This document shows positions 6,591 to 21,893 of a DNA stretch of 22,951 nt, piece after piece. Position 1 is the first letter of the stretch; every line of letters starts with the position of its first letter. A program made the translations under genes and the position numbers. The notes beneath the pieces are model-generated. The model had not been told where the DNA came from. It saw nothing but the letters and a program-made list of their open reading frames with translations, and did no database searches. The stretch is from a virus: the IMG/VR virus record IMGVR_UViG_3300045110_000104, positions 1 through 22,951 of that record; one strand, 5' to 3'.

Positions 6591-6778
6591 CGATGGCTGA
6601 CCACGTCCTGCTGGTGCTCGCGCTGGGCCTGTCGCTCATGATGCTCGTGCTCACGCTCAAGTGCCTGCGGCAGATCAGCGCGCAGATGGCCGTGCTGACG
6701 CTCCGCATGATCGACCTCGTTGAGGCGATCAAGGAACTCGACACCGATCTGCGGGCCGAACTCGACCGGTTCCTCTGA
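6587..6778 (+). CDS. Single-pass small membrane protein
   Basis: A 63-residue protein from ATG 6587, overlapping the upstream stop by ATGA. Residues 6-25 (HVLLVLALGLSLMMLVLTLK) form a transmembrane helix. The rest (about 26-63) is an amphipathic, increasingly acidic helix (MIDLVEAIKELDTDLRAEL) likely to be cytoplasmic and oligomeric. The shape resembles phage membrane anchors or spanin/holin accessory proteins, but its place before the HNH and terminase genes, far from the tail end, argues against a simple lysis role. No signal cleavage site is seen. Confidence 0.6.
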   Translation: MTMADHVLLVLALGLSLMMLVLTLKCLRQISAQMAVLTLRMIDLVEAIKELDTDLRAELDRFL

Positions 6779-7110
6779 TGCCTGATCAGGCGCCTCACTT
6801 CTGTGTCGTGCCCGGCTGCGCCCAGCTCACCACGCGCCGCCGCTGTCTGGCCCATGCCGCCCTGGCCGAACACGCACGCCCCAACTACGCGCTCCGCCGG
6901 TGGTACCGTACGCCCCAGTGGAAGGCGCTCCGTGCCCGTATCCTGCGCGAGGCGTGCTACACCTGCGCCCTCTGCGGCCAGGTCTTCCTCGCCCTCGAGG
7001 TCGACCACATCACCCGGCACGAGGGCAACCCTGCTAGGTTCTGGGCTCGGGCAAACTTACAAGCGCTCTGTCGTCGCTGCCATCAGCAGAAGACGCAACG
7101 TGGGGAGTAA
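6778..7110 (+). CDS. HNH endonuclease
   Basis: A 110-residue HNH nuclease. The zinc ligands C63-x2-C66 and C98-x2-C101 frame the active site D76-H77 (EVDHIT), N93 (ANLQALC) and H102. It also has the WYRTPQWKALRARIL helix common to terminase-associated HNH proteins. An N-terminal extension carries a second possible zinc site (C9, C14, C23, H26). HNH proteins encoded just before the large terminase assist DNA cutting during packaging in several HK97-like phages, and this gene occupies exactly that place. Its ATG overlaps the previous stop (TGATG). The family is firm; the packaging role is inferred from context. Confidence 0.9.
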   Translation: MPDQAPHFCVVPGCAQLTTRRRCLAHAALAEHARPNYALRRWYRTPQWKALRARILREACYTCALCGQVFLALEVDHITRHEGNPARFWARANLQALCRRCHQQKTQRGE

Positions 7111-7264: not shown

Positions 7265-8881
7265 ATGCCTGATCTCGCCGTCATTCCGCTCAAACGTGAC
7301 CGGCGAGGCGGCTGGAACCGGAACGCACCGGTTCGCGACGTGGGCCTCTTGGAGGCACCGGCGGCCTCGCAAGATCCGATCGCGTTCATCAACAGCCTGA
7401 CCCACACGAAGGGCGCATTCGCCCGACAAACCTTCAACCTGCGGCCCTGGCAGGTGCGCATCATCAAGCGGTTGTTCAAGAAGCGGCCCGACGGGCGGCG
7501 CCAGTACCGGACGTGCCTGTTGATGCTGCCGCGCAAGAACGGCAAGACGGAGCTCGCGGCGGCGATTGCGCTCTATGGGCTCCTGGCCGATGGCGAGGCG
7601 GGCGCCGAGGTCTATTCCGCGGCGGCCGATCGCGATCAGGCCAGCTTAGTGTTTGGCGTGGCCGCCCAGATGGTCCGGAACGATGCGGCGCTCGAGGGCG
7701 CGTGTTACGTCGTCGAGTCGCAGAAGCGGATCGTGCACGCGTCGACCGGCAGCTTCTACCGCGCCATCGCGGCCGAGGCGCACAGTAAGCACGGCTTCAA
7801 TGCGTCGATGGTGATTTATGACGAGCTGCACGCGGCGCCCGATCGCCGGCTGTACGACGTGTTGTCGACGTCGATGGGCGCCAGGGAGCAGCCGCTCCTG
7901 CTCGTGATTTCAACGGCCGGGTACGATCGCCACTCGATCCTCTGGGAGCTGTACGCGCACGCGAAGAAGGTCCAGGAGCGGCCGGCGCTCGATCCGTCGT
8001 TTCTCCCGATCTTGTATGAGGCGCCGGAGGGGGCCGACTGGACGAAGCGCCGGGTGTGGCGGAAGGCGAATCCAGCGCTCGGCGATTTCCGCTCGCTCGA
8101 GGAGATGCAGATCTTGGCGGCCCGCGCGAAGCAGATTCCCGCGCAGGAAAACAACTTCCGCCGCTTGTATTTGAACCAGTGGACCGAGCAGGCCGCGCGC
8201 TGGATTCAGATGCCGGCCTGGGACGGCTGCCAGACGTCCGTGGGCGGCCGCCAGGCGCTCCACAAGCGTCGATGCTACGTCGGGATGGACCTGAGCACGA
8301 CGACCGACCTGACGGCGATCGTGGCGGTCTTTCCCGACGAGCTCGGCTTCGACGTGCTCGCCCAGTTCTTCGTGCCCGAGGAGCGGATCGTGGAACGGTC
8401 CCGCCGCGATCACGTCCCGTATGACGAATGGGCGCGCCAGGGCGTCCTGACCTCGACGCCTGGCGCGGTCGTCGACTATGACGTGCTCAGGCTGGTCCTC
8501 CTACAATGGGCCGCGGAGTTTTCCCTGCAGATGGTGGCCTTCGATCCGTGGAACGCGACCGACCTGGTGACGCGCCTGCAGCAGCAGGACGGGCTACCCT
8601 GCGTCTCGATGCGCCAGGGCTTCGCGTCGCTCTCGGCGCCGACCAAGTCGCTCGAGCAGGCCATCGTCGGCCGCCGGCTGCGCCATGACGGGCACCCGGT
8701 GCTCCGCTGGAATGTGAGCAACGTGGCCGTCGAGACCGATTCGGCGGGCAACCTGCGCCCGAGCAAGCACATCTCGACCGAGCGCATCGACGGTGTCGTG
8801 GCCCTCATCATGGCGGTCGACCTGATGAACCGCCTCGGGACAGCGTCGACGCCGAGTTACCAGATGCTGGTGGTCGGGTGA
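7265..8881 (+). CDS. terL: Terminase large subunit (HK97-type, Terminase_1)
   Basis: DNA-packaging motor and headful/cos nuclease, 538 residues, the normal family length. The ATPase domain shows a Walker A-like LPRKNGKT (88-95), Walker B MVIYDELH (182-189, D186-E187) and the coupling motif ISTAG (215-219). The nuclease domain has the expected acidic triad: D342 in YVGMD, D427 in AFDPW and D509 in RIDGVVAL. ATG 7265 is the first start after an in-frame stop at 7259 and has no visible Shine-Dalgarno, so translation may depend on coupling or a leaderless transcript. A GTGA overlap leads to the next gene. No small subunit is recognisable upstream; the HNH protein probably assists. Confidence 0.96.
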   Translation: MPDLAVIPLKRDRRGGWNRNAPVRDVGLLEAPAASQDPIAFINSLTHTKGAFARQTFNLRPWQVRIIKRLFKKRPDGRRQYRTCLLMLPRKNGKTELAAAIALYGLLADGEAGAEVYSAAADRDQASLVFGVAAQMVRNDAALEGACYVVESQKRIVHASTGSFYRAIAAEAHSKHGFNASMVIYDELHAAPDRRLYDVLSTSMGAREQPLLLVISTAGYDRHSILWELYAHAKKVQERPALDPSFLPILYEAPEGADWTKRRVWRKANPALGDFRSLEEMQILAARAKQIPAQENNFRRLYLNQWTEQAARWIQMPAWDGCQTSVGGRQALHKRRCYVGMDLSTTTDLTAIVAVFPDELGFDVLAQFFVPEERIVERSRRDHVPYDEWARQGVLTSTPGAVVDYDVLRLVLLQWAAEFSLQMVAFDPWNATDLVTRLQQQDGLPCVSMRQGFASLSAPTKSLEQAIVGRRLRHDGHPVLRWNVSNVAVETDSAGNLRPSKHISTERIDGVVALIMAVDLMNRLGTASTPSYQMLVVG

Positions 8882-9143: not shown

Positions 9144-10994
9144 GTGGATCGTGCGTACGCGCTGCTCGAGGTCAAGACGGTCGAACCGGCCCGCCGGATG
9201 ATCAGCGGTATCGCGTCGACGCCTGAGCTCGATCGCCAGGGCGATATTTTCGACCCGGCCGGCGCCACGTTTCGGAATCCCGTCCCGCTCCTGCTCCATC
9301 ACGACGAGCGTCAGCCGGTCGGGACGGCTTATCTGGCGGTCACGCCCGCCGGCATCACGTTTGACGCGACGTTCCCATACGTCGAAGAGCCGGGGCCGCT
9401 CAAGGCGCGCATCGACGACGCCTGGCAGTGTCTCAAGGCCGACCTGGTTTCCGGGGCCTCGATTGGGTTCCGCATCCTCGCCGGCGGCGTGCAGTACCTC
9501 AAGAGCGGCGCCCGTAAGCTCGTCAAGACAGAAATCTGTGAGCTCTCACTCGTGACGATTCCCGCCAATGCGAGCGCCACGATCCGCCTTGTCAAATCAC
9601 TCGCGGCGCCGCGCCGCACGGAGACCCATGTCATGAAGCCAACGATCTCGGAACACATCCAGAACCTCGAGAACAAGCGCGCCGCCGTGGCGGGACGGAT
9701 GGCCGACATCATGAAGGGCGGCGCCGACGAAGATCGGACGCTGAACGACGAGGAGTCGACCGAACACGACGGCCTGGCCGTGCAGGTCAAGTCCATCGAC
9801 GCCGACCTGGGGCGCTGGCGCGAACACGAGAAGCTACAGATCACAAGTGCCGTCCCGGTCCCGGCGATCCCGGCGCCGCGGCCGGCGTACCAGTCGATCT
9901 CGGTCAAAGCGAACGTCCCGCTCGGGACGGCATTCGTCCGCGCCGCCTGCGCGCAACTGGTCTGCAAGAGCACGGGGCAGAATCCGATCGAATACGCGGA
10001 ACGCTGGAAGGATTCCACGCCTGAAGTCGCGCTGTACCTCAAGGCCGCGGTCGCGCCTGGCACGATCACCGATGCGACGTGGGCGTCGCCGCTCGTGAAT
10101 CAGAACGTCTCGAGCGAGTTCCTCGAGCTCCTGCGGCCGGCGACGATCCTCGGCAAGATCCCGAACATGCGGCAAGTGCCGTTCAACACGAAGGTCCCGA
10201 GCCAGACGGCCGGCGGCACGTATGGCTGGGTCGGAGAAGCGAAGCCGAAGTCCGTCACGAAGCTCGCCTTCTCGTCGACCTCGCTCGCCGTCTCGAAGGC
10301 CGCCGGCATCATCGTGCTGACGAAAGAGCTCGTGATGCTCAGCAACCCGAGCGCCGAGGCGCTGGTACGCGCGGATATGGTCGCCGGGATTGCGCAGTTC
10401 CTCGATCAGCAGTTCATCGATCCCGCTGTGGCCGCGGTCGCCGGCGTCAATCCGGCGTCGATCACCAACGGCGCGCCCACCGCGGCGGCGACGACCAATC
10501 CGCTCGCCGACATCATCGGGCTGATCTCACACTTCGCGACCAACAACATCGGCGTCGATGGCGTGACGTTCATCATGTCGGCAGCGAATGCGCTGTCGCT
10601 CACGTTCCGCACAAACCTGGACGGCTCACCCGAGTTCCCAGGCGTCACGATCAGCGGCGGGAGCTACAAGGGGCTGACGTTCATCACGAGCCAGGCCGCC
10701 GGCGGGAACGTGATCGCGCTCCAGCCGCAGCTGATCTTGTATGCCGACGATGGCGGCGTCTCGATCGACGCCTCCGAGCAGGCCTCGCTGCAGATGGACA
10801 GCGCGCCGGCCTCGCCGTCCGATGCGACGACCGTCTACGTCTCGCTCTGGCAGACCAACACGATCGGCCTGCGCGCGGAGCGGTTCGTGAACTGGGCGAA
10901 GGCGAACGCGAACGCGGTCAAGTACCTGACGGCGACCGCCTGGCCGGCGCCGACGGGCCTCGAGGCCGCTGGGACGAGCCGCAGCAAGGGCTAG
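9144..10994 (+). CDS. Fused HK97 prohead protease and major capsid protein
   Basis: A 616-residue single ORF holding two proteins that are normally separate. Residues 1-155 are an HK97/U35 prohead protease: start-region MISGIASTPELDRQGDIF, catalytic H53 in LLLHHDE, S106 in GASIGF, and ICELSLVTIPANASA near the end. Residues of about 164-615 are an HK97-fold capsid protein: a helical delta/scaffold region (ISEHIQNLENKRAAVAGRM), then a mature shell domain (YGWVGEAKPKSVTKLAF, LTKELVMLSNPSAEALVRADM, GVTFIMSAANALSL, AERFVNWAKANANAVKYL). No frameshift or stop is visible between them. GTG 9144 lacks a good ribosome binding site, while an internal ATG at 9633 (M164) has GGAG 9 nt upstream and could yield free capsid subunits. 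Domain calls are firm; how the fusion is expressed is inferred. Confidence 0.93.
   Translation: MDRAYALLEVKTVEPARRMISGIASTPELDRQGDIFDPAGATFRNPVPLLLHHDERQPVGTAYLAVTPAGITFDATFPYVEEPGPLKARIDDAWQCLKADLVSGASIGFRILAGGVQYLKSGARKLVKTEICELSLVTIPANASATIRLVKSLAAPRRTETHVMKPTISEHIQNLENKRAAVAGRMADIMKGGADEDRTLNDEESTEHDGLAVQVKSIDADLGRWREHEKLQITSAVPVPAIPAPRPAYQSISVKANVPLGTAFVRAACAQLVCKSTGQNPIEYAERWKDSTPEVALYLKAAVAPGTITDATWASPLVNQNVSSEFLELLRPATILGKIPNMRQVPFNTKVPSQTAGGTYGWVGEAKPKSVTKLAFSSTSLAVSKAAGIIVLTKELVMLSNPSAEALVRADMVAGIAQFLDQQFIDPAVAAVAGVNPASITNGAPTAAATTNPLADIIGLISHFATNNIGVDGVTFIMSAANALSLTFRTNLDGSPEFPGVTISGGSYKGLTFITSQAAGGNVIALQPQLILYADDGGVSIDASEQASLQMDSAPASPSDATTVYVSLWQTNTIGLRAERFVNWAKANANAVKYLTATAWPAPTGLEAAGTSRSKG
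9620..9635 (+). promoter_or_regulatory. Candidate internal translation start for free capsid protein
   Basis: GGAG at 9620-9623 lies 9 nt before the in-frame ATG 9633-9635 (M164 of the fusion). This is exactly where the HK97-like capsid domain would begin (MKPTISEHIQNLENKR). Initiation here would give a 453-residue capsid protein in addition to the less abundant protease-capsid fusion. A second ATG at 9628 is out of frame. Confidence 0.45.
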
Positions 10995-10997
10995 CCC

Positions 10998-12314
10998 GTG
11001 GGGGTCCTGGCGTCGATCCGCTCGTCGCTGCGCGCGGTCTTCGCACCGGGCGCGACGGCGCCAGGCACGGGCGCCTGGATGCCGATCGTCGGCGAGCCCT
11101 ACACCGGCGCCTGGCAAAAGAACGACGAGCTTCGCCTCGAGACGGCGCTCGCCAACCCGGTCGTCTTTCGCTGCGTCTCGCTCATCGCGTCCGATATCGG
11201 GAAGCTGCCGCTGCGGCTCGTCGCCGTCGATGCCAGTGGGATCTGGCACGAGACGACGAGCCCCGCGTTCTCGCCCGTCCTGCGCGTCCCGAATCGCTAC
11301 CAGACGCCGGCCCAATTCTTCGAATCCTGGATGTTTTCCAAGCTGCTCTGGGGCAACACCTACGTTCTGAAGGACCGCGATCAGCGCGGCGTCGTGACGG
11401 CGCTCTATGTCCTCGACCCGTGCCGCGTCAAGCCGCTCGTGGCGCCCGATGGGAGCGTCTATTACGAGCTCCAGACGAGCGACCTGGCCGGCATTCCGGC
11501 CAGCGGCGGCCCGCTCGTCGTCCCGGCGAAGGAGATCATCCACGACCGCTGGAACTGCGCGTTCCATCCGCTCGTCGGCCTGTCGCCGCTCTACGCCTGC
11601 GGCGGGGCGGCGCGGCAGGGGCTCGAGATGCAGGCGGCCAGCACGTCGTTCTTCTCGGGCGGCGGCCGGCCCAGTGGGGCGCTCATGCCGCCACAGGGCG
11701 CGCAGTCGCTCGATCAGAAGACCATCGAGCGCATCAGTGCCACGTGGAACAACCTCGGCGCCGGCCGCACGGCGATCCTCGGCGATTTCATGAAGTACGA
11801 GCCGATCGGAGCATCGGCGAGTGACTCGCAGCTCATCGAACAGATGGGCCTCACCGCGAAGATGATCGCCGGCTGCTTCGGCGTGCCGATCTCGATGGTC
11901 GATTCCAGCCAACAGCCGCCGTATGCGAACAACGAAGCGTCGACGCTCCAGTACCACTCGCAGTGTCTGCAGACACATCTGACGGGCATCGAGGCCGCCC
12001 TCGATGCGGGGCTCGAACTGCCGCCGCCCTACGGCACCGAGTTCGATCTCGACGACCTGATCTGGATGGACACGGCGACCAAGACCAAGGCCGCGCACGA
12101 TGCGATCAGCGCCGGCGCGATGTCGCCGAATGAAGCGCGCCTGAAGTACTTCGGGCTCGGGCCGGTGCCTGGCGGCGACACGCCGTACCTCCAGCAGCAG
12201 TACTACTCGCTCGAGGCGCTCTCGATGCGGGATCTGAGTGCCCCGGCGCCAGCGACGGCCCCCCCCGTCGTGGCGCCGGCCGATGTGACGGCGACGGAGG
12301 TCGAGACGCCATGA
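10998..12314 (+). CDS. Portal protein (HK97 family)
   Basis: A 438-residue portal, which forms the dodecameric DNA channel at one capsid vertex. Family hallmarks: ANPVVFRCVSLIASDIGKLPLRL (about 53-75), LRVPNRYQTPAQFFESWMFSKLLWGNTYVLKDRD (about 95-128), the clip/stem region with GLSPLYACGGAARQGLEMQ, and the late motif AGCFGVPISMVDSS...YANNEASTLQY. The C-terminus is an Ala/Pro-rich tail. It starts at GTG 10998 with AAGGGC a few bases upstream, 3 nt after the capsid stop, and ends in an ATGA overlap with the connector gene. It lies downstream of the capsid gene, the reverse of the usual portal-protease-capsid order. Confidence 0.94.
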   Translation: MGVLASIRSSLRAVFAPGATAPGTGAWMPIVGEPYTGAWQKNDELRLETALANPVVFRCVSLIASDIGKLPLRLVAVDASGIWHETTSPAFSPVLRVPNRYQTPAQFFESWMFSKLLWGNTYVLKDRDQRGVVTALYVLDPCRVKPLVAPDGSVYYELQTSDLAGIPASGGPLVVPAKEIIHDRWNCAFHPLVGLSPLYACGGAARQGLEMQAASTSFFSGGGRPSGALMPPQGAQSLDQKTIERISATWNNLGAGRTAILGDFMKYEPIGASASDSQLIEQMGLTAKMIAGCFGVPISMVDSSQQPPYANNEASTLQYHSQCLQTHLTGIEAALDAGLELPPPYGTEFDLDDLIWMDTATKTKAAHDAISAGAMSPNEARLKYFGLGPVPGGDTPYLQQQYYSLEALSMRDLSAPAPATAPPVVAPADVTATEVETP

Positions 12315-14862: not shown

Positions 14863-17800
14863 ATGGCCCTTTCCGCGACCTTCACCGCGAACTTCGCCAG
14901 CTTCTACGACGCGGTCGATAAGGCCGACGCGAAGCTGAAGGATTTCGGCTCGGGCGCCGACAAGGTCGGCGGCCGCCTCAATACCCTCGCCAATCAGTTC
15001 TCCGGCCAGAAGATCGTCCAGGAAGCCACGATCGTGGCCAAGGCCGTCGAAGAAATCGGCGGCGTGTCGAACCTCACCGAACGGGAACTGCAAAAGCTCG
15101 GCAAGACGGCGCAAGAGGCGGCCGAAAAGCTCGGCAAGCTGGGAAAGGATGTGCCGGCCGGCATCGCGGAGATCGCCAACGCGGCGAAAGATGCGTCGGC
15201 GAAAACGTCGGTCCTGAACGAGACCTTCGGGCAACTGGTCTCGGCGTTGTCGGTCTCGTCCTTGATCAACAAAGCGGCCTCGGGCCTGGTGGGGATCGGC
15301 AAGGCGGCGATCGAGAACGCGGGAAAGCTCGTCGATATGAACGTCAAGACGGGCGTCTCGATCGAAGGCTTGCAGCGGATGGGCTTCGTTGCGGAGCATA
15401 CCTCGACGACGGTCGAGGCGTTCGCCGATGTCATCTTCAAGATGGGGACGAACGTCGAGAAAGGATCAAAGGAAACCGTACAGGCGGTCGAAAAACTCGG
15501 GATCTCGTTTAAGGATTTCCGCGCGCAGAGTCCCGAGGAACAGTTCAATACCCTGGTCAAAAACGTCGATAAGCTCGGGCCGGCCGGGGTGCGGAATGCC
15601 GATCTCGTCGCGATTGGCGGGAAGGCCGTCGGCGAAGCGATTTCCGGCATGGTGGACGGGTACGAACGGCTGGCGGCGCAAGCGACGGTCACGGGCGCGG
15701 AGCAAATTCGCGCGATCGATACGGCGTCGGAAAAGTGGGACGAATTTACCGCAAAAATCGGGACACATATTACGACGACGGCCGGCAATATCGTGATCTT
15801 GACGGGGGCGTTATCCGATAACAAGGTCACCTGGTCGGAATGGTTGAAGGTGGTGACGATGCAAGCGGGCGCCGCGCAAAATGCGGCGATCGCGGCGCTC
15901 GCCACGAAGGGCACGATCAACGAACTGACGGACGCACAGAAAAAACTGATTGCTGAGGAGGCGAAGCTCGGATCGTCGCTCGATTGGATCGCTGGACTGA
16001 CGCATGCATCGAAGGAAGCGATCGAAGCGTACGAAAAATCGTTGAATAGTGCGGCGGTCGCCCACCATAAGACGGCGGAGGAACTCGCGGCGGAGACGAA
16101 GGCGCAAAGCGAGCACGAGGCCGCGGTCAAAAAAGCGAACGACGCGATTCTCGCGCAAAAGGCGGCGATTCAGGCGCTGGCCGATACCTATACCGGCAAG
16201 GCGCTAGCCGCGGAGATTGCCAAAGTCACCGAAGCGATCCGCGTGGCCGGCGGGATCGAGCATATCTCGGGGCAGCAATTAGAGGCGCTCGCGAAACAGG
16301 CGAAGGCGTTTCAGGCGGCCGGCGGCACGCTCTCTCCGGTGCTGCAAACGATCGAGGCCAATTTTCTGACGTTCGCGGACGCCGGGATCAAGGTGGAGTC
16401 CGGCCTGGGGCGGCTGGTCAAGCTGTTACCGCAGGTCAAGCTCGAAGCGAAGGATCTGTCGGACGTGATCGCGGCGGAGGACGCGGCGTTCGCGTTGATG
16501 CTCGCGAAAAGTGACGCGCGCGGGTTGCCGCAATTGGGGATCAAGGGATCGCAGGGAACCAAAGTCACGCTCTCGCCGGAACCGGCGGCGAAAACCAACG
16601 AGTGGGCGCAACAAGTCGAACTGCTCTCGCAAGAATTCGTCAAGCTGGGGCAAGCGGCCGGCGGCTCGATCGGCTCGATTTTGAGCGGGACGGGGCAAGC
16701 GATCGTCTTGATGGAGGCGGCGCAAAAATCTACCGAACAGATCGGGATCAACGGGAAAAAGCTCGGCGGGTCGTTCGGGCCGATCTCGACGATGTTCAAC
16801 GACAACGCGACGTCGGCGCAAAAGTGGGGCGCGACGATACAAGCCGGGTCGGCGATCGCGTCGGGCGCGATGGATGTCTGGGCGAGCTCGGCGAATCAGG
16901 GGAGCAAAGCGGCGAACGTCCTGGGCGGGACGATGGCGGGCGCGAAGGCGGGCGCGGCGTTCGGGCCGTGGGGCATGGCGATCGGCGCCGCGGCCGGGGC
17001 GCTCACCGGGTTTATCCGGAATCTGACGGCGGGGCGCAAGGCGGTCGAGGAGTTCGCGAAAACGCAAGGCGGGTTCGATGAACTCCACAAGAAGCTCGGC
17101 CAGCTCGGCGCGGACGGCGAGAAGATGTGGGTCCAACTGACCCAAAACACCCGCAAGGGGGATCTCGCTGGCGCGCAAGCCGAGATCGACAAAATCAAGG
17201 CGGCGCTCGGCGGCGTCGAGGAGGCCTTCGCGAAAGCGGCGGCGAGTCCGGCCGGGACGATGTGGGACAAGTCGTTCCAGACGTTGATCGCCGATTCCGA
17301 AAAACTCGGGATGAATCTCGACAAGATCGCGGAACTCAAAGCTGGACAGGTCAAGAATGCGGCGGCCGGGTTTGCGAGCGCGGTGGGCGTGACGGCCGGC
17401 GCGGCGAAGCAATTGGCGGCCGATCAAGCCAAGTTGGCCGATGTGTTGGCCAAGGCGCCATCCGGCCAGGCGCTCGATCCGTCGACACAAGCCGAGGTCG
17501 AAGCGCTCAATCAGGATCTGAAAGATCAACAGGGCATCATCGATGCCACGGGGCTCCATTCGCAACACGCGGCGTCGGCGATCGCGGGCTCGATTGCCGG
17601 CATTATCGCGGCGAACATGGCGGCCGGCGAGTCGTTCGTCTCGGCGGTGCGGGAGGCCGGGCCGACGATCGAAGGGCTGGCCGATGAGCTCAAACGGACA
17701 GGGCTCGACGGCGGCGAAGCGTTTGCGTTTATCAAGTCGGAGGCCGATCTCGTCAACGACGCGGTGGCCGGGCCGGCGCTGACGGCGATCGAAGGGCTGA

Positions 17801-18549
17801 CGGCGGGCATGGTCGGGCTCTCGAATGCCGGACTCCTCACGCAAGACATGTTCGGCGGGTTGAGCGAACAGATTACGGGCACGTTCCAATCGCTCGTCGA
17901 TCAAGGGAAGGACGGGCCGGCGATTCTCGCGGCCATGCAGCCGGATCTCCAGGCGCTCTGGGAAGCGCAAGAGAAGTTCGGGTACACGACGGACGAGGCG
18001 ACACAAAAACTCCTCGATCAGGCGGAAGCGGCCGGGCTCGTCGGCGAGAAACATAAGCCGGTCAACGAACAGATGCTCGACGCGCTGACGAAGATCGAGG
18101 CGGCGGCCGGCCGGATCGCGGATGCGCTGGCGGGGCCGGGGCAAGGGTCGATCACGGCGGCGACCAAAACGGCGGCCGGCGAGCTCTCGAAGTTGCCGAA
18201 GTCGATCGACATTCAAGTCCAGGGGCGATACGTGCCGCCGGACATCCCCGGCGGCGGCGGCGCGGTCACGCCGCCGGACTATGGTGGGGCGCAAGCGGCC
18301 GGCGGTGATTACCTCGTCACCCGTCCCACGATGTTTCTGGCCGGCGAGGCCGGGGCCGAGCGGGTCACGTTCCGGCCACAGGGCGGCGGCCGCGGCGGCG
18401 CCGGCGGCGGCGTGAATGTGGGCGGCGTGTCGGTCAATATCTCGGGCGGCGCGATCGATGAGGCCTGGCTCCGGCGCGGCGGCGCGCGGCAGATTGCCGA
18501 TGCGGTCGCGGCGCATCTGGGCCGGTCGCTCGGAGTGGCGCCGGTATGA
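14863..18549 (+). CDS. Tape measure protein
   Basis: A 1228-residue protein that sets tail length and probably helps DNA entry. It is Ala/Lys/Glu-rich and largely helical, with coiled-coil stretches. Features: an N-terminal phage tail domain (FYDAVDKADAKLKDFGSGADKVGG), a hydrophobic segment near 120-145 (LVSALSVSSLINKAASGLVGIGKAAI), and the Gly/Ala-rich membrane-like stretch AGAKAGAAFGPWGMAIGAAA (about 692-711). The C-terminus is typical of tape measures (GGDYLVTRPTMFLAGEAGAERV, then a Gly-rich linker and a final helix). No lytic transglycosylase or peptidase motif was spotted. It starts 1 nt after the GT stop. From about 15.6 kb its Gln and Gly codons change in style (CAA and GGG instead of CAG and GGC). 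Confidence 0.93.
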   Translation: MALSATFTANFASFYDAVDKADAKLKDFGSGADKVGGRLNTLANQFSGQKIVQEATIVAKAVEEIGGVSNLTERELQKLGKTAQEAAEKLGKLGKDVPAGIAEIANAAKDASAKTSVLNETFGQLVSALSVSSLINKAASGLVGIGKAAIENAGKLVDMNVKTGVSIEGLQRMGFVAEHTSTTVEAFADVIFKMGTNVEKGSKETVQAVEKLGISFKDFRAQSPEEQFNTLVKNVDKLGPAGVRNADLVAIGGKAVGEAISGMVDGYERLAAQATVTGAEQIRAIDTASEKWDEFTAKIGTHITTTAGNIVILTGALSDNKVTWSEWLKVVTMQAGAAQNAAIAALATKGTINELTDAQKKLIAEEAKLGSSLDWIAGLTHASKEAIEAYEKSLNSAAVAHHKTAEELAAETKAQSEHEAAVKKANDAILAQKAAIQALADTYTGKALAAEIAKVTEAIRVAGGIEHISGQQLEALAKQAKAFQAAGGTLSPVLQTIEANFLTFADAGIKVESGLGRLVKLLPQVKLEAKDLSDVIAAEDAAFALMLAKSDARGLPQLGIKGSQGTKVTLSPEPAAKTNEWAQQVELLSQEFVKLGQAAGGSIGSILSGTGQAIVLMEAAQKSTEQIGINGKKLGGSFGPISTMFNDNATSAQKWGATIQAGSAIASGAMDVWASSANQGSKAANVLGGTMAGAKAGAAFGPWGMAIGAAAGALTGFIRNLTAGRKAVEEFAKTQGGFDELHKKLGQLGADGEKMWVQLTQNTRKGDLAGAQAEIDKIKAALGGVEEAFAKAAASPAGTMWDKSFQTLIADSEKLGMNLDKIAELKAGQVKNAAAGFASAVGVTAGAAKQLAADQAKLADVLAKAPSGQALDPSTQAEVEALNQDLKDQQGIIDATGLHSQHAASAIAGSIAGIIAANMAAGESFVSAVREAGPTIEGLADELKRTGLDGGEAFAFIKSEADLVNDAVAGPALTAIEGLTAGMVGLSNAGLLTQDMFGGLSEQITGTFQSLVDQGKDGPAILAAMQPDLQALWEAQEKFGYTTDEATQKLLDQAEAAGLVGEKHKPVNEQMLDALTKIEAAAGRIADALAGPGQGSITAATKTAAGELSKLPKSIDIQVQGRYVPPDIPGGGGAVTPPDYGGAQAAGGDYLVTRPTMFLAGEAGAERVTFRPQGGGRGGAGGGVNVGGVSVNISGGAIDEAWLRRGGARQIADAVAAHLGRSLGVAPV

Positions 18550-21500
18550 AGGTCACGATCAACGGCGGCGAGGTCACGGCGAACATCCGGTCGGCCTCGG
18601 GGGCCACGATTGGCCCCATGCGAGTGAATGAGCTCTCGACGGCGCATTTCCAGTTCCTCGATGGGACGGCGCCGAGTCGCGGCGACACGCTCGTGGCGTA
18701 CGGGCCTGACAATACGACACCGATTTTTGGCGGGCTGGTCCGCAAGCGGACGGCGACGGCGTATGAGCGCGGGCTGACGCAATTCTTCGTGGATTGTGAT
18801 GTGGACGATTGGTGGGTCTATCTGGACACGTCGATCGCGACGTCGCGCGTGTATGCGGCGCCCGTCACCTTGAAACAAGCGTTGATCGATCTGGTGGCCG
18901 ATTGCGGGCTCGGCGCGGCCGGCTTCACGGTCGATCCGGCGCAAGTGAACGGGCCGACCTTCGCGGCGTTTGCGTGGGCGCAAACCGGGGCGGCCGATGC
19001 GGTGCGGATGCTGTCCACCTGGGCGACATCGGGATCGACCAGTTACGTCGCGCGGATTTCGCCGTTGAAAGTGATCCGGATGTTCGTACCAGGTACCGAT
19101 CCGGCGCCCTTCGCGATCACGGACGCGGCGCCACATTGCGAGGATCTGACCTGGGCCGATCCGGATGCGATTGCCTATACCAAAGTCGCGCTCTGGTGCG
19201 GGCCGCCGGGGCCGATGGATTATCACCAAACGTGGACCCAGGCGGGCGGCGCGACGTTGTGGCTCGCGGATATTCCGGCGGCGAATGGAACGACGGCCGG
19301 GTACGTGATGGTCGGTGGCGTCTTCAAGACGGTCAGCGTCTACGGCGACGGGCTCGGGATGTATGAGTGGGATTGGGCCACGCGTACGCTCCATAAAGGG
19401 ACCGATGGGATTCCGGCGAACGGGACGGTGATCACGCTCGTCTATGCCGCCGCGTCACCGTTCCTGGTGACATCGGGGACGGGGTCGATTGTCAGTACGG
19501 CGAGCTCGCCCGAATCGCTCACGCTCGCGGACGGGCAACGGACGGCCGATGGGCTGTATGCCAGGGTGCACGGTGGCGCGAAAACGTGGGCCATTCTCAG
19601 TCACGATCACGGCTGGCGGCCGGGGCAAGGGATCACGATCAATCTCTCGGCGCCGGCCGTCAGTGGCCTCCTGACGATCAACGCGGTCACGATTCAAATC
19701 ATCACGGGGGCGATCTGGAAATATCAGATCGAAGCGGCCGAAACCGTCGTGTATCAGGGTAGTAGTAACGATCAATGGCGGGCGCTCTTGTCCGGCGGCG
19801 GTGGGGCCGTGGTCGCACCGGCACGCGTGACCAGCGGTGGCGACGGAACACTTCCGCCACTCGCGGCCGGACAGATTTTCGTCGGGTCGGCGGCGAATGT
19901 GGCAACGGCGCGGCCGATGACCGGCGACCTGGGGATCGATGCGTCGGGCGTGACGGCGATCGCGGCGGGCGTGATTGTCAACGCGGATATCAGCGCGACG
20001 GCGGGGATCGTCGATGGCAAGCTCGCGATCATTTCGTCACCTGGCAAGGTCGCGAATAGTGCGACCACGGCGGTCAGTGGGAATGTGCCGTTAGCGATTG
20101 TGTTGCGGGATAGTAACGGCGATGTGGGCGCGCATGAAGCGGTACTGGTCAGTGTCACGTCTCCATCTGGGTCGTTACTGCTCAAGGGCGCGAATGGGGT
20201 CGTTGAGGTGCCGTCCAGCTACGGCCTGGAAACAGGATATGCGTCTGGATTCGCCGGGTCGGGCTTTACGTTGAGTATGGGGCGGTATCCGCCGTACGGA
20301 TCGTATTGCGAGGTGGATCAGTTAACCGTACGCGGGCGGATGAACGTGTATGAATTACTCGTCCATCAAATTCGCGCGACCAACGGTAGCATCTTTGTGG
20401 CGAACACGGGGCGCATTAAAGCGGCGGCGGCGGTCGGCGGTGGCGGGTTCAATATCGATACGGAAGGCGCGCACGGGTTCGCGGTGGGGGATCTGATTCG
20501 CGCGCAACGGTTTACGACGGCGGGCGGCGGGGCAGCCGTCTATCAGTCGAATCTTGAAGTGGTCGGAGTGTCGAGTACCACGGCGTTCGGCGCGCATCTG
20601 TTTAGCGGGGATGTGCCGGCGAATGGCATGGATTACGTACGGATCGGCAATTCCTCAGATGCGTCTCGGCGCGCGTCGATTTATATGACGGCGGATGATG
20701 TCGGGGCGCCGTTTATCCAAATCAATAATGACGTGTCCACGTTCGGGGAATTTAATACGACGGCGAAAACGAAGGGCCGGATCGGCAATCTCAACGGGTC
20801 GTATAACTACAATGCGGACATCTACGGGATCGCGTTCGGGGATCAGGCGGGCGCGTGGTTGAAGTTGGAGCCGGTGAACGGCTTACGGCTCGGCTTCAAC
20901 AATACAACCTTTACGCAAATCGACGCGGCCGGGAATGCGCTGTTTTCGGGGTCGATCGCGGTCGGGAAAGTCACGATCACGACTAGCGGGATCGTGATCA
21001 ATCAAACGGGCGCGTACGATTGGACCGGCGGCGCGTATCGGTTCAATCTGCCGACCTGCAATAACGGGTTGAGCGGGTTTGATAACGGCGCGGGGAATCA
21101 GTCGCTCTATCTCAACAATCAATGGGTCGGCGCGGGTACCAAGAATTCACAGATCACGATTGGCGCGAATGGCGGCGGCGGGCACGGGGTCGAGATCCAA
21201 GTCAAATCGTTTGGGGCCAGTCTCGGATTGGTATCGATCGGCGGCGTGGGTGTCCTGAACATCACCGAAAATGGCGCGATCGATTGGAGCGGCGGTGCCT
21301 CGATCGCCAATTCCGATCTGGTCGCGCGTCGCGATGTCGCGAATACGTTTCTCGCCACACCGAGAATCAGTAGCACGCCGGAAGCGCATATCCATTTGTA
21401 CATGCCAACGGCGCCAGTGAGCCAAAAGTTTTATGAGATCGCGGCCGGCTCAAGTTATCTCACGTTCCGATTTTATGATGATGGATACAGCGGTGGGATC

Positions 21501-21893
21501 GATGCGTTTTATGCCACGCGATCAGGGACGGCGTTACAGACGATCCAACGGTACGACAATCAGGCGACGTGGAATACCACGTCAGACGCGCGCGCGAAAA
21601 CGAAGATCGAGGCGTTCGATCCGGTCGATCGGATGCGGCAGATTGCGATCCGATCGTTTGAGTATACCGGCGCCTTTGGGATGGCGCCGGGACGGGGCAT
21701 CGGGCCGATCGCGCAAGAGGTACAAGCGGTCTTTCCGGAGTTCGTCCAGTCGCGGACGTTTGGCGATGAGGACGTGTTGACACTGAATCCTGGCGGGTTG
21801 TTCATGGCGAATATTGCATATACGCAAGCGATCGACGCGCGGGTGACGGCGCTCGAAGCGATCGCGGCGCGTCTGGAACGGGGGCCAGCATGA
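18546..21893 (+). CDS. Giant tail hub-fiber protein with C-terminal S74 intramolecular chaperone
   Basis: 1115 residues combining parts that are often separate genes. The N-terminus (about 1-400: FGGLVRKRTATAYE, VTLKQALIDLVADCGLG, ADAVRMLSTWATSG, WADPDAIAYTKVALWCG) resembles a baseplate hub or tail-associated protein that caps the tube. The middle (about 430-1000) is Gly/Ala/Thr/Asn-rich beta fiber with GNVPLAIVLRDSNGDVGAHE-like repeats. The last 103 residues are an S74 chaperone: TSDARAKTKI with predicted self-cleavage before S1013, then GIGPIAQEVQAVFPEFV and a final helix (ALEAIAARLE). The chaperone trimerises the fiber and is released. It directly follows the tape measure with an ATGA overlap; no separate Dit gene is visible. 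Its base composition is less GC-rich in the fiber part than in the head genes. Confidence 0.85.
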   Translation: MKVTINGGEVTANIRSASGATIGPMRVNELSTAHFQFLDGTAPSRGDTLVAYGPDNTTPIFGGLVRKRTATAYERGLTQFFVDCDVDDWWVYLDTSIATSRVYAAPVTLKQALIDLVADCGLGAAGFTVDPAQVNGPTFAAFAWAQTGAADAVRMLSTWATSGSTSYVARISPLKVIRMFVPGTDPAPFAITDAAPHCEDLTWADPDAIAYTKVALWCGPPGPMDYHQTWTQAGGATLWLADIPAANGTTAGYVMVGGVFKTVSVYGDGLGMYEWDWATRTLHKGTDGIPANGTVITLVYAAASPFLVTSGTGSIVSTASSPESLTLADGQRTADGLYARVHGGAKTWAILSHDHGWRPGQGITINLSAPAVSGLLTINAVTIQIITGAIWKYQIEAAETVVYQGSSNDQWRALLSGGGGAVVAPARVTSGGDGTLPPLAAGQIFVGSAANVATARPMTGDLGIDASGVTAIAAGVIVNADISATAGIVDGKLAIISSPGKVANSATTAVSGNVPLAIVLRDSNGDVGAHEAVLVSVTSPSGSLLLKGANGVVEVPSSYGLETGYASGFAGSGFTLSMGRYPPYGSYCEVDQLTVRGRMNVYELLVHQIRATNGSIFVANTGRIKAAAAVGGGGFNIDTEGAHGFAVGDLIRAQRFTTAGGGAAVYQSNLEVVGVSSTTAFGAHLFSGDVPANGMDYVRIGNSSDASRRASIYMTADDVGAPFIQINNDVSTFGEFNTTAKTKGRIGNLNGSYNYNADIYGIAFGDQAGAWLKLEPVNGLRLGFNNTTFTQIDAAGNALFSGSIAVGKVTITTSGIVINQTGAYDWTGGAYRFNLPTCNNGLSGFDNGAGNQSLYLNNQWVGAGTKNSQITIGANGGGGHGVEIQVKSFGASLGLVSIGGVGVLNITENGAIDWSGGASIANSDLVARRDVANTFLATPRISSTPEAHIHLYMPTAPVSQKFYEIAAGSSYLTFRFYDDGYSGGIDAFYATRSGTALQTIQRYDNQATWNTTSDARAKTKIEAFDPVDRMRQIAIRSFEYTGAFGMAPGRGIGPIAQEVQAVFPEFVQSRTFGDEDVLTLNPGGLFMANIAYTQAIDARVTALEAIAARLERGPA

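Follow-up and report, generated by a model that had tools for sequence, protein, structure and literature searches.

How does a phage that needs abundant capsid protein but little protease manage when both are encoded in one gene? The question is raised by an open reading frame (ORF) at 9144-10994 of a 22,951-nt stretch of DNA from a bacterial virus (IMG/VR record IMGVR_UViG_3300045110_000104, positions 1-22,951; the whole stretch is referred to below as the window), in which a prohead protease, a delta or scaffold domain and a major capsid protein follow each other in a single frame. Comparison of the sequence with about 150 relatives indicates that this ORF very probably gives two proteins by in-frame nested translation, one a scarce fusion and the other an abundant scaffold-capsid subunit that would be initiated at an internal ATG, codon 164. 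The features of the ORF are as follows.

9144..10994, plus strand: the full ORF, a protease-delta(scaffold)-major capsid fusion of 616 amino acids and 65.0 kDa with a GTG start; match to PHROG 617 over residues 3-600.
9144..9146, plus strand: GTG start of the protease/fusion product, duplex energy +0.6, without a Shine-Dalgarno (SD) sequence; preceded by TGA in frame.
9195..9596, plus strand: S78 prohead protease domain, residues 18-151 (Pfam and AlphaFold2 model), in which H53, S106 and E133 are invariant.
9597..9632, plus strand: linker, hypervariable and disordered, residues about 152-163, containing the internal SD (alignment; predicted local distance difference test score (pLDDT) below 50 at 151-165).
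9620..9623, plus strand: GGAG, core of the internal SD, duplex energy -6.6.
9633..10994, plus strand: nested capsid gene with ATG (M164) start; predicted delta-capsid product of 453 amino acids and 47.4 kDa (comparative evidence).
9645..9848, plus strand: delta/scaffold domain with two long helices, 168-195 and 202-235 (AlphaFold2 model).
9858..9911, plus strand: disordered stretch, residues about 239-256, with conserved V254-K255; proposed maturation cleavage site, the position being inferred.
9927..10943, plus strand: HK97-fold capsid domain, residues 262-600 (Pfam, AlphaFold2 model and Foldseek).

The anatomy can be observed directly. The frame opens at GTG 9144 and closes with the stop at 10994, giving 616 codons with no stop inside, and as the in-frame TGA is only two codons 5' of the GTG, this is the earliest possible start. 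Pfam recognises Peptidase_S78 at residues 45-151 (9e-09) and Phage_capsid at 317-596 (6.7e-15). The protease part scores 36.1 bits against the curated Peptidase_S78 cut-off of 21, although it does not reach the stricter equivalog cut-off of TIGR01543 (36.2 against 59). It has the conserved catalytic His and Ser and an acidic residue expected of the family, all three without exception in a 39-sequence alignment of relatives, and E133 is likely to be the third catalytic residue. The capsid part falls among the HK97-fold major capsid proteins (PF05065 and TIGR01554, 55.7 bits and 47.1 bits), and the top Foldseek matches of the predicted model are the Bxb1 and HK97 capsids, with E down to 1e-12. 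In the AlphaFold2 model of the 616-residue protein (mean pLDDT 72) the protease occupies 18-151, the delta/scaffold domain with its two helices 168-235 and the HK97 fold 262 onwards, with disordered segments in between at 151-165 (the linker) and 239-255. M164 is at the exact boundary of protease linker and scaffold domain, which is the place expected for the start of a free HK97-type capsid gene, and GGAG at 9620-9623 is separated from it by nine bases (9624-9632), with ATG 9633 in frame. The original prediction, made from this DNA alone, had pointed to protease residues H53 and S106 and a complete capsid region in one uninterrupted frame, and to GGAG nine nt before an in-frame ATG at the capsid start, and it was right on both counts.

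The fusion as such is real, and is already known and catalogued. The same uninterrupted frame is present in all of the best 80 IMG/VR relatives (48-90% identity), which come from many metagenomes, and the same fusion is found in the isolated phages PAJU2, RHph_X2_26, SP-016 and JLK-2012, with hosts among Pseudomonas, Rhizobium, Salmonella and Escherichia; an assembly or frameshift artefact is thereby ruled out. The protein is a full-length member of PHROG 617, with E 4.7e-113 and residues 3-600 aligned to profile positions 11-626, and the PAJU2 record carries the annotation "prohead protease fused capsid protein". These phages of the PHROG 617/PAJU2 ORF003 type resemble the window in having the S78 protease and HK97-fold capsid end to end and in the order terminase-fusion-portal, and their records annotate a single fused protein with no internal start. 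Fusions of protease to capsid protein have also been published for thaumarchaeal proviruses (PMC6563490), namely Nvie-Pro1 and NCAV2-Pro1, which unlike the window are archaeal, with a chymotrypsin-like protease in the case of Nvie-Pro1. What may be new here is the proposed second start: we found no published internal start for a protease-capsid fusion in the open-access literature searched, which is not proof of absence. PMC4936722, PMC3185647, PMC5537653 and PMC13119297 are not relevant to this question.

A first indication that codon 164 is a start comes from its conservation. We aligned the joint of the window, the 80 metagenome relatives, the four isolated phages and three split Moraxella phages, taking as joint Met the one that most closely precedes the conserved scaffold helix, a choice that calls for some caution. 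The linker varies in both length and sequence across this alignment, yet there is a Met at the joint in every sequence. Of 76 fused contexts, 75 have ATG as the joint codon and one has GTG; the entropy of this codon is 0.1 bit, as against about 2.5-3.5 bits for the flanking codons. The sole GTG (L115, Comamonas) has a strong SD upstream, and since the only replacement is another start codon it appears that start-codon function is being kept rather than the amino acid. Retention of the Met for the sake of the peptide can be ruled out, given that the flanking codons are free to vary, that the SD core occurs in three codon phases and that one joint is GTG. Relatives lacking any start at the joint had been named in the original prediction as grounds for abandoning it, and among the fused relatives examined there are none.

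The second line of evidence is the SD itself, scored as the duplex energy with the 16S tail in the region 4-20 bases upstream. For 53 representatives with less than 85% identity, the mean at the joint is -5.7 kcal/mol. Other in-frame Mets, 541 in all, give -2.6 (p = 2e-18), and recoding the same peptides synonymously gives -3.6 (Wilcoxon p = 5e-8). In 27 prophage or isolate fusions the corresponding values are -7.1, -2.6 and -4.9. The SD core is found at the joint in all three codon phases and with different peptides, and the peptide therefore does not explain it. Predicted RNA folding likewise leaves the joint more open, with an unpaired value of 0.49 against 0.38 (p = 2e-9). A conserved in-frame internal start with its SD is thus present in the relatives, as in genes of the lambda C/Nu3 type discussed below.

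The first start is quite different in the clade to which the window belongs. There it is GTG or TTG in half of the cases, with a mean SD of -1.8 even as a best-case pick and +0.6 for the window, whereas the joint SD has a mean of -5.5 and is the stronger of the two in 42 of 47 (p = 2e-8). The portal starts at the same loci average -4.5, again as a best-case pick, from which it seems that these phages do use SD sequences.

Relatives in which the two genes are separate tell the same story. Scanning bacterial genomes added 46 loci, almost all of them from Pseudomonadota, and these together with the isolates comprise 29 that are fused and 20 that are split at the joint. In the split relatives the capsid gene starts at an ATG homologous to the fused joint, in 11 of the 20 overlapping the protease stop by 4 nt (ATGA), and the SD at split capsid starts (n=20) does not differ from that at fused joints (-6.6 and -7.1, p = 0.91). 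On a capsid tree of 73 sequences fused and split forms interchange at least 9 times by parsimony, of which at least 4 are forced by well-supported branches. The simplest reading of these sequences is that the capsid start would always be used, and that it would be of little consequence whether the protease frame stops just before it or runs on. In Stenotrophomonas phage SOVA965 (L082, 3501-5586) the protease/capsid relatives are annotated in three pieces, with the capsid in two overlapping ORFs, which could be a sequencing error or a real split.

The original prediction had also suggested a search for other protease-capsid fusions that keep a Met and SD at the joint, and there is a second such family outside the relatives described above. 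A search of 299 genomes from the phylum of a Pseudomonas host turned up NF045541, which NCBI calls "prohead protease/major capsid protein fusion protein", above its cut-off in 18 (loci L148-L165). Like the window this family encodes protease and capsid as a single ORF whose joint has SD and ATG, but its capsid is of another Pfam family, PF25209 as against PF05065, and the window protein scores only 21.5 bits against the NF045541 cut-off of 525. The protease part may be distantly related to that of the window, it being only the capsid part that is clearly of another family. ATG is in the joint column in 17 of 23 loci and slightly displaced in two more, with SD sequences such as AGAGGAGCTGAAATG. 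The joint SD has a mean of -7.2, where other Mets give -2.4 (p = 1e-9); once the two displaced members are included it is stronger than the synonymous null (p = 6e-6). As the NF045541 joint also has SD and ATG, the layout seems to be general for protease-capsid fusions. We think it likely that the "fusions" of tailed phages in general are nested in-frame gene pairs, with at least two distinct capsid families sharing the layout, and fusion or splitting nearly neutral around a permanently kept capsid start.

There are several observations that weigh against nested translation as we propose it. The GGAG of the window is not beyond chance when compared with synonymous recoding of its own peptide (p = 0.44); we have discarded it as proof by itself, and the significance of the internal SD thus lies in the comparative set only. 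The sequences used for the SD and structure comparisons are kin, so that the p-values overstate independence, and a few relatives (L041, L043) have no recognisable SD at the joint ATG. Finally, a strong SD also precedes the first start of enteric relatives and of many prophages. The ratio of products is therefore not set by SD strength alone everywhere, and other controls must matter in enteric phages and many prophages.

Strong first starts bear on two alternatives to nested translation. All capsid subunits could be the 65-kDa fusion, so that a procapsid would have as many proteases as subunits, with protease and scaffold removed together at maturation and the joint Met a relic of an unfused ancestor, and the good SD at the first start in many prophage relatives fits this, as do the open frame and intact protease residues in all fused relatives. 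However a relic in so variable a linker should decay, and all 76 keep a start codon, the only change being to GTG; with the joint SD above the synonymous null and the first start weak in the window's clade, we regard this as very unlikely. The other possibility is that the internal start is used for a minor or regulatory product, and that the fusion is the main structural subunit. The SD at the first start does equal or exceed that at the joint in the enteric and several alphaproteobacterial relatives, but the figure of 42 in 47 for the window's clade is the reverse of what would be expected, and in known proheads of the HK97 type protease is several-fold scarcer than capsid, making this also very unlikely.

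It could also be argued that a single fused precursor is cut in the linker (about residues 150-165) by its own protease, free capsid then arising from proteolysis only. The linker is predicted to be disordered and hence accessible, but its peptide is not conserved and no common cleavage motif is visible, the conserved elements being those of the nucleotide sequence, namely a start codon and a purine-rich SD. Such cleavage would moreover leave protease made 1:1 with capsid, and we consider it extremely improbable. The original prediction had favoured an internal start over every subunit carrying its own protease, and the comparison, through the conservation that we have described, supports that choice.

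From this conservation we infer that the internal start is used in vivo, and can suggest how nested translation would operate. Weak initiation at GTG 9144 would give a minor 616-residue, 65.0-kDa protease-scaffold-capsid polyprotein, and stronger initiation at ATG 9633, aided by GGAG 9620-9623, a major 453-residue, 47.4-kDa scaffold-capsid subunit. As both carry the same scaffold and capsid domains, the two products would be expected to co-assemble through them, and the protease would enter the procapsid as a minority passenger on fused subunits. It would then cut the scaffold off all subunits, its own carrier included, to give an identical mature shell. The conserved stretch around V254-K255 is the likely maturation site to judge from the alignment, and cleavage near K255 would leave a mature capsid protein of about 37 kDa.

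There are precedents for parts of this arrangement. In lambda C/Nu3 and herpesvirus UL26/UL26.5 an in-frame internal start in the protease gene gives an abundant C-terminal assembly protein, and the protease co-assembles via the shared domain. In those systems the nested product is a separate scaffold, whereas that of the window is delta domain plus capsid, that is a major capsid protein with its own scaffold domain, and the proteases and folds also differ from those of the window. The lambda C/nu3 overlap is mentioned in PMC11739229. HK97 gp4/gp5 and D3 are similar to the window in having protease, delta/scaffold domain and HK97 capsid fold, but protease and capsid are in separate genes. The protease is scarcer than the capsid in both, HK97 having about 60 copies of it for 415 capsid subunits and D3 about 90 for each Prohead 1 (PMC12749128), and the nested layout would, by analogy, match this stoichiometry.

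The rest of the head module is normal, except that the portal is placed after the capsid gene. On the 5' side of the fusion gene are genes for an HNH endonuclease (6778-7110) and the large terminase (7265-8881), and on the 3' side those for the portal (10998-12314), head-tail connectors, a tail completion protein and the major tail protein. The portal is also 3' rather than 5' of the protease-capsid gene in PAJU2, SP-016 and JLK-2012. Further on, a 1228-residue ORF at 14863-18549 has no Pfam or PHROG match and is at the place expected for a tape measure or tail protein, and 18546-21893 encodes a tail-fibre-like protein with a C-terminal Peptidase_S74 intramolecular chaperone domain, which is a self-cleaving trimerisation domain. 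Several close relatives (L002, L010, L012 and L015) are on contigs of 22.9-24 kb, similar to the 22,951 bases of the window, which may be the complete length of a compact genome.

A nested start within one gene would solve both stoichiometry, with scarce protease and abundant capsid, and delivery, with the protease fused to a capsid subunit. For annotation the consequence is that pipelines call such genes single fusion proteins, and in many phages the annotated main capsid subunit would be wrong by about 160 residues. As one codon change would separate the two products there is an experimental handle, and relatives of both kinds, fused and split, form a natural series in which to test the effect of protease dose on capsid assembly.
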